This document shows, piece after piece, positions 19,513 through 33,556 of a stretch of DNA of 33,870 nt. A model generated the notes under the pieces. It saw only the letters and a program-made list of their open reading frames with translations, was not told where the DNA came from and searched no databases. The translations under genes and the position numbers were made by a program. This DNA comes from a bacterium (GTDB taxonomy: Bacteria > Acidobacteriota > Terriglobia > Terriglobales > Acidobacteriaceae), in assembly GCA_026225095.1 (NCBI GenBank), contig JAMFSC010000044.1:1-33870 (forward strand), in the 5' to 3' direction. Every line of letters starts with the position of its first letter. Position 1 is the stretch's first letter.

Positions 19513-20376
19513 TCAGAGGTTGAACAGCTCCCGCAGACGCCTGGTCTGAGCCCGGCTGACGGGAATCTCCGTCTTCTTGGCGTCGTCCATACGGAGCTGG
19601 TAGGTCGACTTGAACCACGGGACCACCTCGCGGATATGCTGAATATTCACGACGAACGATCGGTGCGCCCGCCAGAAGGCCGCCGGATCTAGCTGGTCCA
19701 TCAGCTCTTCGAGTGTACGGCAGTTCGATTGCCCCTCCACCCCGGAGGTGACCACGCTGATCGCACCATCTTCGATCGAAGCAAAACAGATCTCGCGCTG
19801 ATCGACGAGCAAGAGCCGATTTTGCGCCCGCACGATCACCTTGCTGCGAGGCCGCTGCGCCGCATGGAGAGCCTGAGTCTGGGCCTGAGCCTGGGCCTGC
19901 TCCTCCACCAGCCTCAGCAGCGCATCCAGCTTCGCCCCCGCCTGCGTGTCGATTCCACCCGCAGTCGGCGCAGACGCGGTGGCGGCGGCCGTCATCCGCC
20001 CCCGGGCCTTCTCAATCGTCTGCAGCACGCGATTTCGGTCGAAAGGCTTCAGCAGATAGTCGACCGCATTCACCTCGAAGGCGCGCACCGCATACTGGTC
20101 GTACGCCGTCGCAAATACCACCTGCGGCAGCCGGGTCCTCTTCTCGAGCAGCTTTTTCAGCACCGCAAACCCATCCAGCCCCGGCATCTGGACGTCCAGA
20201 AAGACAAGATCGGGCTTCAGTGTCCGGATCAGCTCAACCGCTTCGATGCCGTTACTCCCCTGCGCCAACAATTCGATGCCGCTGGCCGACTCCAGCAAAT
20301 AGGCCAGTTCCTGCCGCGCCAGGGGCTCGTCGTCGATGATTACGGTGCGGAGTGGAATCTTGGGGGAGCTAGTCAC
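19513..20376 (-). CDS. LytTR-family DNA-binding response regulator
   Basis: 287 residues. The receiver domain (about 10-125) has acidic pocket Asp15/Asp16 and phospho-acceptor Asp61 in FLDVQMPGLDG, the conserved VVFATAYDQYAVRAFE and the lysine in YLLKPF. A linker with a Gln/Ala run (QAQAQAQTQ) leads to a LytTR domain (about 183-287) with FWRAHRSFVVNI and ending LRELFNL, which binds direct repeats in the DNA major groove. The start is GTG 20376, sharing GTGACTAG with the upstream gene's stop. No LytS-type kinase is encoded nearby; the operon partners are a sigma factor and two membrane proteins, so the phosphate source is unclear. Confidence 0.88.
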   Translation of the reverse strand: MTSSPKIPLRTVIIDDEPLARQELAYLLESASGIELLAQGSNGIEAVELIRTLKPDLVFLDVQMPGLDGFAVLKKLLEKRTRLPQVVFATAYDQYAVRAFEVNAVDYLLKPFDRNRVLQTIEKARGRMTAAATASAPTAGGIDTQAGAKLDALLRLVEEQAQAQAQTQALHAAQRPRSKVIVRAQNRLLLVDQREICFASIEDGAISVVTSGVEGQSNCRTLEELMDQLDPAAFWRAHRSFVVNIQHIREVVPWFKSTYQLRMDDAKKTEIPVSRAQTRRLRELFNL

Positions 20377-20917
20377 GATACGCGCGAAGCCTTGCCGGCG
20401 TCTGGTCCTGCGCCAGATCATGCCCGCACTGAACACAGTATACGTCTGTGATCTGAACGCTGCGGAAGCACTGTCCGCAAGCCGGAGCCATCTGGAACTG
20501 GCACTGCGGGCAGAAGTGGAAGTCCGCCGCCAACTCCGTCGTACAGTTTGGGCAGCGCGACAACACCGGCTGACGCAGCAGGAAGTACACCACCGCGCCG
20601 ATCCCGCCAGGCATCAGGATCACCAGCAGCATCCAGAGTCCGGCCGACATCTTTCGCCGCCTGACGTCCCGGCTGACATACCCGACCAGCAGCACATAGC
20701 TCGCGAATGCGGTCCCCGACGAGTACCCCATGATGATGCGCATGGGCAGCATCTCATGCCGGCCATGCGGCAGCACCTCGTGAAACAGATACTGAGTCGC
20801 GGCGAAGACAACGATGGCCAGCAGGATCGCCCATCGCGGAATCAGGCTCAGTTCGCTATCGCCGCCTCCGGTCGTCTCCATGGGCGAATCAGCAGGTCGT
20901 CTCCAGGGCAACGTCAT
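20369..20917 (-). CDS. Membrane protein with C-terminal double zinc ribbon
   Basis: 182 residues. Three hydrophobic segments (about 28-45, 60-82 and 92-115) are followed by a cysteine-rich cytoplasmic tail with four CxxC pairs: Cys122/125, 136/139, 147/150 and 161/164 (CPNC, CPQC, CGQC, CVQC). This arrangement fits a double zinc ribbon, which may bind metal, protein or nucleic acid. I chose the ATG at 20917 because it forms an ATGA overlap with the upstream gene and has GGGGGAG just ahead. It sits between the small membrane protein and the LytTR regulator, so it could be a membrane-bound sensor or tether. I do not recognise a named family. Confidence 0.75.
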   Translation of the reverse strand: MTLPWRRPADSPMETTGGGDSELSLIPRWAILLAIVVFAATQYLFHEVLPHGRHEMLPMRIIMGYSSGTAFASYVLLVGYVSRDVRRRKMSAGLWMLLVILMPGGIGAVVYFLLRQPVLSRCPNCTTELAADFHFCPQCQFQMAPACGQCFRSVQITDVYCVQCGHDLAQDQTPARLRAYRD

Positions 20918-21282
20918 CGCGTCTCCCCCCCGGCGGACCGGGCACGCACACGGCGCACCAGCGCGATAATCAGCAGCGCACCCGTCACCGGCAGAAACCA
21001 AATCAAGATAAGCGGCAGGTGAAACCGAATATCCGAGGTCGAAAGTTCATACTCGTCAAACATTAACCAGAAGGCCGTGATCAGTACGATCACCAGAGAC
21101 GAAGCAACCAGCACCGGAACCAGCAGCGACAAATTACGTCTTCTTCGGTCCTGTAGGATCCGCGCCTGAGCCCGCACCACGCGATGCGTGCGATTGATCG
21201 CGGAGCCGCGTGCCGGCACCTTCCGAGCGTTCTGATCCGGAGGACCGGCCACGAGACGTGGGCTGATCGGCGACGTGCTCAT
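20914..21282 (-). CDS. Small two-TM membrane protein, possible anti-sigma factor
   Basis: 122 residues: a basic cytoplasmic N-terminus (about 1-50, with RAQARILQDRRRRN), two transmembrane helices (about 51-74 and 88-108), and a short basic C-terminus, so both ends probably face the cytoplasm. The ATG overlaps the sigma factor stop (ATGA) and its own stop overlaps the zinc-ribbon gene (ATGA). Position suggests an anti-sigma or sigma-tethering role, but there is no HxxxCxxC zinc finger and no recognised family, so function is unknown. Confidence 0.7.
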   Translation of the reverse strand: MSTSPISPRLVAGPPDQNARKVPARGSAINRTHRVVRAQARILQDRRRRNLSLLVPVLVASSLVIVLITAFWLMFDEYELSTSDIRFHLPLILIWFLPVTGALLIIALVRRVRARSAGGETR

Positions 21283-21911
21283 CGCGCTCCCTCCCGCACC
21301 GGACGGAAGCTGCGAATCCGCTCCACATGCGGCTTCAGAGCAGCCAAACCCCTGTAAAGACGGGACTTGACAGTTGAGAGCGGAGCCTTGGTCACACCCG
21401 CGATCTCCTCAAGCGAAAGCTCCTCATGGAACCGCAGGACAAGCACTTCGCGGTAGTTCGGCTCCAGCAGAAGCAGCACCTGGGCCAGCTCCGCGGAGTT
21501 CTCCCGCGCCTGAAACTGCTCCAGCGGTGACGGTCCTTCCATCACAATCTCAAACGGCCGCTCGTCTTCCCCACCCTCGCTCATCTCATCGAGCGACGAC
21601 ATCGTCCGCTTCCGCGAGAGGTCGATCACCAGGTTCCGCGCGATCGTAAACAGCCATGTATCGAAGCGCGCCCGGCCGTCGTACTGCCCGCCCCGCACCA
21701 GGACCCTCATCCATGTCTCCTGGAAGAGGTCTTCGGCAACCTCACGCTTTCCCGTCAGAAAGATGAGATAGCGCAGCAAACGATGCTGATAGAGCTCGAT
21801 CAACCGGTCCAGCAACTCCGGGTCCTGACGCTTCAATCCACGGGCGATCACAGCATTTTCACGCTGTGTCTCGGCAACTTGCGCTGCCATCTGCACCGAA
21901 GATAGGGTCAT
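21279..21911 (-). CDS. ECF-type RNA polymerase sigma factor (RpoE/SigW-like)
   Basis: 210 residues from the ATG at 21911; a GTG at 21926 would add five. Region 2 is about 33-105 (LIELYQHRLLRYLIFL, AEDLFQETWMRVL, then FDTWLFTIARNLVIDLSRK). Region 4 is about 145-200 with EELSLEEIAGVTKAPLSTV. It heads a four-gene overlapping operon ending in a LytTR response regulator. A TAAAAT on the minus strand around 21964-21969 may be a -10 element; no RpoE-like promoter is obvious. No good Shine-Dalgarno sequence marks either start. Confidence 0.9.
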   Translation of the reverse strand: MTLSSVQMAAQVAETQRENAVIARGLKRQDPELLDRLIELYQHRLLRYLIFLTGKREVAEDLFQETWMRVLVRGGQYDGRARFDTWLFTIARNLVIDLSRKRTMSSLDEMSEGGEDERPFEIVMEGPSPLEQFQARENSAELAQVLLLLEPNYREVLVLRFHEELSLEEIAGVTKAPLSTVKSRLYRGLAALKPHVERIRSFRPVREGAR

Positions 21912-22132
21912 GGACGAGGCTTGCACAGTAATCTGACGGGCTCCGCCAAAAGAAAGTCTCTCAATATTTTAGTCGATTCACACCGTCGGCCGGGCGTGGC
22001 AGCGGCTGCCAGCAATATACGCCCGCACACGTCGGGCGCAAAGCACCGATTTCAGGACCGGCCACTTCACACCCCGCAGCCTGGCAGCTCACCGGAGCCC
22101 TCTCCCTCGCAGGCAAGCAGTAAACTGGTCTG

Positions 22133-32150: not shown

Positions 32151-32888
32151 CTATCCCTGGACTGATATACCCGCAAAGGTCAGTACCACGCGACCTTTGA
32201 CCGGAACCCCGAAGACGCTCGCCGGTTTGAACACCGAGAGCAGCAATTGATCCACGATCTGAGACTGAATCGTCCCAGCCTCCGGTCCATCCGGCGGCGT
32301 CAGCATGTTGTAGTCGTACACGCGCCCCTGGCTGTTCACCAACGCCTCGACCACGATGGTGTTCCCGGAGCTGCCGTCCTTGCCCGAGAGCACAATCGGC
32401 CGTGGACTCACCGCCGAGTATAGGTAGTGAGGAGCCGTGATCGCTCCCAGTGGCTCATCGTTCGCGAGCACCGCATTGGGCGGAGGCACCACGCCCAGCA
32501 GAAGCGCAATCACCGCCATCAGGGTGACCGCACAGGCTACGCCAGCCGAAAGCTGGACCGAAAGCGGACGCAACGTATTCTCCCAGAATAGGGAGACCCC
32601 GTCCCGCCAGTTCGACTGCCGGGCCGCCTGCTCTCGCGAGATTGCAAGCCGCAGCCGCAATCCAAGATCCTCCGGAGCCTTCGGGTTCTTCAGCGAGGCC
32701 AGCGTCTGCTGCATCGCCTTCCACCCCTCAAACTCCTCCCCACAGGCCGAGCACCCATCCAGGTGGGCCGCAATCGTCTGCATCTCATGCCCACTGACGG
32801 CGCCATCGAGATAAGCCGAAAACGATTCGCGGATGTTGAGGCAATATTCCGGGTAAATCTGATTCTGATCCAGTGCAAGACCGCTCAT
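32151..32888 (-). CDS. Zinc-finger anti-sigma factor with TonB-C-like periplasmic domain
   Basis: 245 residues. The cytoplasmic N-terminus has a zf-HC2/ZAS-like segment with AHLDGCSACG (His42, Cys46, Cys49), the zinc motif that clamps ECF sigma factors. One transmembrane helix follows at about 115-137 (SAGVACAVTLMAVIALLLGVV). The periplasmic part (about 170-245) has strand patterns VVEALVNSQGRVYDYNML, LLLSVFKPASVFGVPV and GRVVLTFAGISV that resemble a TonB C-terminal domain; this assignment is by eye. Its ATG overlaps the sigma gene's stop (ATGA), so the pair is coupled. Confidence 0.85.
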   Translation of the reverse strand: MSGLALDQNQIYPEYCLNIRESFSAYLDGAVSGHEMQTIAAHLDGCSACGEEFEGWKAMQQTLASLKNPKAPEDLGLRLRLAISREQAARQSNWRDGVSLFWENTLRPLSVQLSAGVACAVTLMAVIALLLGVVPPPNAVLANDEPLGAITAPHYLYSAVSPRPIVLSGKDGSSGNTIVVEALVNSQGRVYDYNMLTPPDGPEAGTIQSQIVDQLLLSVFKPASVFGVPVKGRVVLTFAGISVQG

Positions 32889-33556
32889 CGCGTCGAACCT
32901 CCCGCAGTCATCGCCGCTGCCAGACTTCCGTCCGCAGACAGCAGAATCTTCAGCGCAGAGCGTCCGCGCGTCAGCCGCGACTTCACCGTCCCAAGGTTGC
33001 AGTCCAGGATCTCGGCAATCTCCTCATACGCGAAACCCTCGATCTCGCGCAGCACAACGACATTCCGGTAGGCCTCCGGAAGCTCCCGCAGCGCGGCTTC
33101 AACCCTCTCCCGCATCTGCGCCTGAACCGCATGATCGTAGGGAGAATCCCGCTGATCGGCTAGCGTGGCCGACAAACACAGGCTCTGACCGTCCTCGTCC
33201 GGTTCCGTCGACGAGTCGATCGTGACCTCCTGCCGCTTGTGCCGCGACCACCAGCGACGCTGATTGGAGGCCTCATGCAGCGCGATCCGGTAGAGCCATG
33301 TCCGCAGACTGGAGTCGCCATGGAAGCTCCGGATGCTCCGGAACACCTTCACGAACACCTCCTGCGTAATGTCGGCTGCATCCGCTGGATCCTGCAGCGA
33401 CCGCGCGATCAGGGTATAAAGCGGCTGATGATACTGGGCAATCAGCATCCCGAACGCCTGCTCCGAGCCAGCCTTCAACTCAGCCACCAGCGCAGCATCC
33501 TCCGTCCGGACTCCGATCGCACTCGCCAGATTGCTCACTGCCATGCCCGCCTGCAT
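32885..33556 (-). CDS. ECF-type RNA polymerase sigma factor (RpoE/SigW-like)
   Basis: 223 residues. Region 2 is about 30-100 (LIAQYHQPLYTLIARSL, AADITQEVFVKVFRSI, then LRTWLYRIALHEASNQRRWW). Region 4 is about 155-205 (LPEAYRNVVVLREIEGFAY, then EEIAEILDCNLGTVKSRL). AAGGA lies eight bases before the ATG at 33556, supporting that start over Met5. It is coupled to the downstream anti-sigma gene and has an RpoE-like promoter at 33673-33702, so positive autoregulation is likely. Confidence 0.94.
   Translation of the reverse strand: MQAGMAVSNLASAIGVRTEDAALVAELKAGSEQAFGMLIAQYHQPLYTLIARSLQDPADAADITQEVFVKVFRSIRSFHGDSSLRTWLYRIALHEASNQRRWWSRHKRQEVTIDSSTEPDEDGQSLCLSATLADQRDSPYDHAVQAQMRERVEAALRELPEAYRNVVVLREIEGFAYEEIAEILDCNLGTVKSRLTRGRSALKILLSADGSLAAAMTAGGSTR

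Follow-up and report, generated by a model that had tools for sequence, protein, structure and literature searches.

The window considered here, positions 1 to 33,870 of contig JAMFSC010000044.1 of the Acidobacteriaceae genome assembly GCA_026225095.1, carries on its minus strand four consecutive genes for an extracytoplasmic function (ECF) sigma factor, a 122-aa protein with two transmembrane (TM) helices, a 182-aa membrane protein ending in a double zinc ribbon (the zinc-ribbon protein) and a LytTR response regulator. Judged from sequence, the locus is a conserved sigma/anti-sigma/zinc-ribbon switch with a family-specific LytTR passenger, and not a new category of system. In particular, we hold with modest confidence that it constitutes an autoregulated ECF sigma/anti-sigma membrane switch that is old in the class, to which one family attached the LytTR member of a LytS/LytTR pair. 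The proposal is built on gene order, a promoter motif, the homology of the 122-aa protein to anti-sigma factors, and the presence and co-occurrence of a LytS-type kinase. The features of the locus are as follows:

21911-21279, minus strand: sigma gene as first called, ATG at 21911, 210 aa
21279..21926, minus strand: ECF sigma factor, likely extent from a GTG start placed by promoter distance, 215 aa
20914..21282, minus strand: 122-aa two-TM protein, putative zinc-less anti-sigma factor, with a zf-HC2-type profile match
21130..21210, minus strand: juxtamembrane helix of the 122-aa protein, residues 25-51 (NRTHRVV region), from conservation and the modelled helix 25-80
20369..20917, minus strand: 182-aa zinc-ribbon protein, PLDc_N-like TM region plus C-terminal double zinc ribbon
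20426..20554, minus strand: the four CxxC pairs of the zinc-ribbon protein, residues 122-164, from the cysteine alignment
19513..20376, minus strand: LytTR response regulator, 287 aa, receiver plus LytTR, Asp61 intact
21935..21960, minus strand: ECF-type promoter GAGACTTTC-N13-CGTC, -35 nonamer at 21952-21960, -10 at 21935-21938

A conserved three-gene module with a LytTR gene attached in one family

A preliminary description of this DNA had portrayed four minus-strand genes chained by overlaps, and we reproduce its coordinates and its junctions, namely ATGA between the sigma and 122-aa genes, ATGA between the latter and the zinc-ribbon gene, and the 8-nt GTGACTAG between the zinc-ribbon and LytTR genes. 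Pfam searches and the residues themselves likewise agree with its recognition of a sigma factor, a LytTR response regulator with Asp61 and a protein with eight cysteines in four CxxC pairs. The sigma factor matches Sigma70_r2 (5e-16), r4_2 (4e-12) and an overlapping r4, all above cut-off, its 210-aa form containing regions 2 and 4 and no other Pfam domain above cut-off; the regulator matches Response_reg (5e-25) and LytTR (4e-22); and the zinc-ribbon protein shows the double zinc ribbon with a weak PLDc_N match. The Pfam scan of the 122-aa protein gave no convincing match. Because of its distance from the promoter, GTG 21926, which lies 12 nt past the C of the -10 element, is probably the start of the sigma gene, rather than ATG 21911.

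Of 100 related genomes searched, 59 contain the 122-aa protein, all of them among the 60 genomes of the genus (the window's own counted); a single-sequence query with it recovered nothing in the 40 genomes outside the genus. The loci of 58 relatives were fetched, making 59 with the window. The order sigma, 122-aa protein, zinc-ribbon protein is kept in 58/58 of these relatives, and the LytTR gene is next downstream on the same strand in 56/58; start codons that would give the -4 spacing exist at the first junction in 54/58 and at the second in 48/58. The spacing between the zinc-ribbon and LytTR genes, which depends on analyst-chosen start codons, is more variable: one relative has an overlap, 26 have gaps of 0-20 nt, 22 of 21-100 nt and seven of more than 100 nt, and in one relative each the LytTR gene is inverted (locus L077) or moved (L082). 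With the overlap present in 2 of the 59 loci and these two displacements, the earlier view of the four genes as one translationally coupled unit does not hold. By eye, the gaps of L038, L080, L081 and L088 contain inverted repeats GTTGCAGGTTG/CAACCTGCAAC or GTTGTCAGTTG-like sequences, which may be small repeat elements whose arrival moved the genes away from each other. In L077, from a genome (G058) with three LytTR genes, a hairpin-like repeat ending in a T-rich stretch is also visible by eye before the inverted LytTR gene.

The 79 named matches come mostly from Granulicella, Edaphobacter and other Acidobacteriaceae, plus Terriglobus and Bryocella, three being metagenome bins under other names (two Rhodanobacteraceae, one Verrucomicrobia). 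In the class Terriglobia, the zinc-ribbon profile matched 133 of 299 genomes, in 40 of 106 genera, the weakest of these matches being possible paralogs. From the class matches 40 loci were chosen by hand, 20 of them within the window's own family but outside its genus and 20 from other families; in 39 of them (the exception being L126) a sigma gene is followed by a small membrane-protein gene and then the zinc-ribbon gene. A LytTR gene lies within about 1.1 kb of this module in 15 of the 20 own-family loci and in 0/20 loci of other families, some of the latter lying on short sequence stretches. LytTR orthologs at cut-off occur in 254 of the 299 class genomes. Since the LytTR gene and the sigma module are each widespread and adjacent only in the window's own family, they appear to have been joined within that one family. 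On this sequence evidence the module is older than its LytTR link, and the four genes are not a single ancient unit. Conservation of the gene order, which the preliminary description had offered as a check on its proposal, is thus borne out for the module and for the LytTR part within the family alone; its further suggestion of LytTR as a second output of the sigma operon is possible in the window's own family and fails beyond it.

The 122-aa protein as a putative reduced anti-sigma factor

The identity of the 122-aa protein emerges from its distant relatives at the same slot. In 24/24 of the loci L135-L158 the middle gene codes for a protein with an N-terminal HxxxCxxC motif and a C-terminal membrane part, in which a simple hydropathy threshold predicts two TM helices in 12 and one in 12. 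Four such proteins were scanned with zf-HC2, giving one match above cut-off and three below. The motif is absent from the window protein and present in 0/58 genus relatives and 0/15 intermediate proteins (0/6 and 0/9), and the two intermediate proteins that were scanned contain no zf-HC2. The end-to-end comparison of the 122-aa profile with the zf-HC2-type profile yields an hhalign probability of 96.6 (E 6e-10) over 104 columns, TM region included, or 95.8 with larger sets, and the matches between the steps of the graded series have probabilities of 100, 98.7 and 97.2. Despite the loss of the motif, the helix before TM1 persists in the genus and intermediate proteins. Residues 25-51, the NRTHRVV region, are the best-conserved part of an otherwise variable protein, whose mean column identity is 44% vs 70% for the zinc-ribbon protein. 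A structure model of the single chain (mean pLDDT 74) is a two-helix model with an unstructured N-terminus and a helix from 25 to 80 that runs through TM1. As four of the 24 HxxxCxxC loci, L135-L138, belong to the window's own family, the loss of the motif probably took place inside that family.

By homology, then, the 122-aa protein would descend from a zinc-type anti-sigma factor, and on account of this homology its binding of the sigma factor is plausible. In class I anti-sigma domains, as set out in PMC7406223, helix 4 contacts sigma region 2 and is joined by a flexible linker to a zinc-bearing three-helix bundle. In our reading, the window protein appears to keep only the class I helix that contacts sigma region 2.

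The promoter of the sigma operon and its copies elsewhere

A motif of the form GAGWCTTTT-N13-CGTC precedes the sigma gene in 57 of the 59 genus loci (none in L040 and L073), a figure that stands without a shuffle control and for which CGTC alone was allowed. The search ran over the 250 nt preceding the assigned start, or 37 nt in L068, and required an exact CGTC together with agreement at six or more of the nine positions of the -35 nonamer. The spacing is 13 nt in 55 sites and 12 nt in two. By eye, L073 seems to carry the CGTA form of the promoter. In the wider set, where CGTC or CGTA was accepted, a promoter was found in 37 of 39 loci; Markov-shuffled sequence would give 1.2, and the reverse strand gave one. 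The -10 element follows lineage, being CGTA in 23/23 sites of L135-L158 and CGTC in 14/14 of L119-L134. Among sigma residues that might track this switch, N78/D78 alone was suggestive, but it was discarded as the window sigma factor itself has D. The sigma factor is predicted to autoregulate its own operon from this promoter. From the C of CGTC to the assigned start codon there are 13 nt in 43 of the 57 loci; set beside typical ECF spacing, so short a distance suggests that the sigma mRNA is possibly leaderless.

Across the 60 genus genomes the strict motif gave 40 sites, 30 at the sigma locus and 10 elsewhere, as against 25 for a reversed-pattern control, and the relaxed motif gave 99, 27 at the locus and 72 elsewhere by the analyst's comparison of positions, as against a control of 120. 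As the off-locus sites do not exceed the controls, the genus gives no sign of a wider strict regulon. The motif precedes none of 20 unlinked LytTR genes, and no convincing copy was seen ahead of the LytTR genes displaced in L077 and L082. The window's own genome has two strict sites elsewhere, one (L276) 41 nt before an oxidoreductase-like frame, as judged by eye, and one (L277) upstream of frames no longer than 62 aa.

The LytTR regulator and an unlinked LytS-type kinase

The Asp motif of the receiver is present in 58/58 genus relatives. The best NCBIfam match of the regulator is BtsR, below that model's cut-off. A PhyR-type partner switch was considered and rejected, the protein having only the receiver and LytTR domains above cut-off and no sigma-like domain. 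The preliminary description had also looked forward to LytTR direct repeats upstream of the sigma gene; in 21911-22130, the only region tested, there are none of at least 8 bp (exact 6-base seeds).

A sigma70-like TATACT is the best-scoring upstream site in 15 of the 20 LytTR genes that are unlinked, and several of these sites are accompanied by a TTGAC-like -35. Within 350 nt upstream of the genus LytTR genes, TATACT or TATAAT is found in 3/59 loci, the window included, where its -35 is poor. The short same-strand gaps and this scarcity favour read-through from the sigma promoter, by which the LytTR gene would be co-transcribed with the sigma operon. A scan of the window for sigma70-type promoters returned none (0.6 in shuffles), and its one terminator-like site (2.5 in shuffles) is inside the LytTR gene.

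The remark that the locus works without a histidine kinase proved misleading. Two LytTR genes are encoded in the window's genome, together with a single PF06580 (LytS-type) kinase on another contig (L274:4675-6015), an ortholog of which, 71-87% identical, is present in each of 20 other genomes that were chosen and fetched; no LytTR match lies within 4-10 kb around these 20 kinase loci. In 12 of the 60 genus genomes there is exactly one PF06580 kinase and exactly one LytTR gene, that of the sigma locus. Among the 299 class genomes, 239 have both, 32 the kinase only, 15 LytTR only and 13 neither (Fisher p 3e-5, in a test that ignores phylogeny); 11 listed genomes of one family (f4) are without either. 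The two gene positions were compared in 114 of these 239 genomes, and no kinase-LytTR pair lies closer than 15.8 kb. These patterns suggest that the LytTR regulator may pair with an unlinked LytS-type kinase; since kinases also belong to families other than PF06580, LytTR may instead have a different one.

The zinc-ribbon membrane protein

The eight cysteines are conserved without exception in the 33/33 aligned zinc-ribbon proteins, and at least four CxxC pairs occur in 58/58 genus members. PLDc_N matches 31 of the 33 at E up to 0.01 (best 2e-5), the window match being below the curated cut-off. The loop between TM2 and TM3 has a charge of +4, favouring a cytosolic loop, which with three full TM helices would place the ribbon outside; the structure model, of low confidence (mean pLDDT 61), has the third helix broken into two short pieces. 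The protein may assist or sense, and is a candidate sensor, co-anti-sigma factor or effector. In one own-family genome (L132) its gene is present in two tandem copies.

The Bacillus SigY operon, SigY-YxlC-YxlD-YxlE, in which YxlD and YxlE contain PLDc_N, offers a parallel; to our knowledge, a double zinc ribbon and LytTR are absent from it. It combines an ECF sigma factor, an anti-sigma factor and further negative regulators of sigma-Y, a make-up that the window locus would resemble; YxlC, YxlD and YxlE are tabulated as sigma-Y antisigma factor, component and negative regulator.

A putative two-input switch

At rest, the cytosolic helix of the 122-aa protein would keep the sigma factor tethered to the membrane, and the zinc-ribbon protein would assist or sense. 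A signal would release the sigma factor from the 122-aa protein, and the free sigma factor would act at the GAGWCTTTT-N13-CGTC promoter to transcribe its own operon, amplifying itself. In the window's family, activation of the operon would also raise the amount of LytTR, which the unlinked LytS-type kinase would then phosphorylate, so that LytTR output would need both inputs, sigma factor and kinase.

A more tentative extension, possible but somewhat doubtful as a whole, is that the sigma factor has nearly a single target, since in the genus its strict promoter rises above background only before its own operon, and that the locus is a membrane-gated switch setting the dose of any gene that stands at the operon end. 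With LytTR as cargo it would become an AND gate, the sigma factor setting the amount and the kinase the phosphorylation, under an anti-sigma factor pared to one membrane-anchored helix. If true, sigma/anti-sigma and two-component signalling were joined in series by one gene entering a self-activating operon. The stepwise evolutionary series from a full zinc-type anti-sigma factor to a single helix also bears on the minimal requirements of an anti-sigma factor, and the spread of the module across a class of common, little-studied soil bacteria provides a concrete experimental entry.

Alternative explanations

Several observations weigh against the switch with an attached LytTR regulator, and a number of them would suit LytTR being a mere neighbour, settled by the sigma operon in one family and not co-regulated with it, which we consider unlikely. 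The inversion in L077 and relocation in L082, the drift of the spacing across the genus loci to as much as 977 nt, the rarity of the overlap and the unlinked LytTR genes in several genera of the window's own family are all in keeping with such a neighbour, and the gaps above 100 nt in seven genus loci weigh on co-transcription. A zinc-ribbon match is missing in 127 of the 254 LytTR-bearing class genomes, indicating that LytTR is independent of the sigma module. Set against a mere neighbour are the same-strand adjacency in nearly all relatives, the 26 gaps of 0-20 nt and the near absence of the TATACT element of unlinked LytTR genes, which is partly expected as the stretch upstream of the linked genes is mostly coding. 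The kinase link is itself imperfect, the 32 and 15 class genomes with one partner alone at cut-off running counter to it, and the other LytTR gene of the window's genome (L275:4998-5753, contig C163) has no kinase match within 10 kb. As for the anti-sigma assignment, the TM helices contribute to the profile match and can inflate its score.

That the sigma factor instead runs a wider regulon through promoters deviating from its own, with LytTR as a minor target, seems to us somewhat unlikely. Divergent promoters are usual in ECF regulons, and the strict class-form motif, which gave 57 sites in the 299 genomes, 41 at the locus and 16 elsewhere by the same comparison of positions, against a control of 6, weighs for a regulon and against a nearly self-directed sigma factor, though some of those 16 could be pieces of sigma loci lying on separate contigs; within the genus, the off-locus counts of the strict and the relaxed motif alike stay below their controls. 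One identical strict promoter stands off-locus in two genomes of one genus (G300:C97:1058-1084 and G240:C90:200-226) and is a possible second sigma target. It is improbable that the zinc-ribbon protein is the main anti-sigma factor or a co-anti-sigma factor in the manner of the extra membrane proteins of the SigY operon: its stronger conservation, the PLDc_N matches among its relatives and the tabulated roles of the Yxl proteins speak for this, but in distant relatives the classical zinc-type anti-sigma domain occurs only at the slot of the 122-aa protein. Very improbable, finally, is a LytTR Regulatory System, in which a membrane protein inhibits LytTR directly and no kinase takes part. Here too the LytTR gene adjoins small membrane-protein genes, as it does in such systems, which PMC6193735 presents as distinct from two-component systems. 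We rejected this reading given the intact receiver domain of the window regulator; direct repeats were likewise not found in the region tested, a LytS-type kinase co-occurs, and the membrane-protein genes are kept also in genomes where LytTR is missing or placed apart from them.

Relationship to known systems

The favoured switch combines themes familiar from several systems. Class I anti-sigma factors such as ChrR and RsiW (PMC7406223) share with it a sigma gene followed by a membrane anti-sigma gene and a promoter motif before the own operon, and distant relatives of the 122-aa protein bear the Hx3Cx2C domain with its following helix; unlike them, the window protein is without the zinc-bearing N-terminal part, and a third membrane-protein gene and LytTR are added. 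The class II anti-sigma factor CnrY of Cupriavidus (PMC7406223) has a similarly short cytosolic part, its last helix binding sigma region 2, but the window form would have been reached by reduction from a zinc-type anti-sigma factor. Class II factors wrap the sigma factor with two short cytosolic helices; the model of the 122-aa chain alone has one long helix, 25-80, running into TM1. LytS/LytTR systems such as BtsS/BtsR and YpdA/YpdB (see also PMC5552118, PMC10653868) consist of a receiver-LytTR regulator and a PF06580 kinase, and both kinds of protein occur here too; in contrast to these systems, kinase and regulator are not neighbours in the 114 genomes compared, and the regulator gene is found in a sigma operon. 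SigE-CseBC of Streptomyces coelicolor (PMC8999054) places a two-component system and an ECF sigma factor in one pathway, there with the two-component system controlling the sigma factor, whereas in the window locus the sigma factor would control the response regulator.

In Granulicella sp. WH15, PMC7074687 reports lytR and sigW transcripts up at high sugar, with lytR also in the proteome; they are not assignable to this operon. Our literature search found nothing that joins an ECF sigma factor, LytTR and Acidobacteria or describes this operon; the main ECF reclassification was outside its results, so an existing ECF group number may apply.

A second sigma/anti-sigma pair in the window

Elsewhere in the window, a second ECF sigma gene (32885-33556, minus strand) overlaps by 4 nt a gene for a canonical zf-HC2 anti-sigma factor (32151-32888, minus strand), indicating that a zinc-type anti-sigma factor has been kept elsewhere in the same genome.

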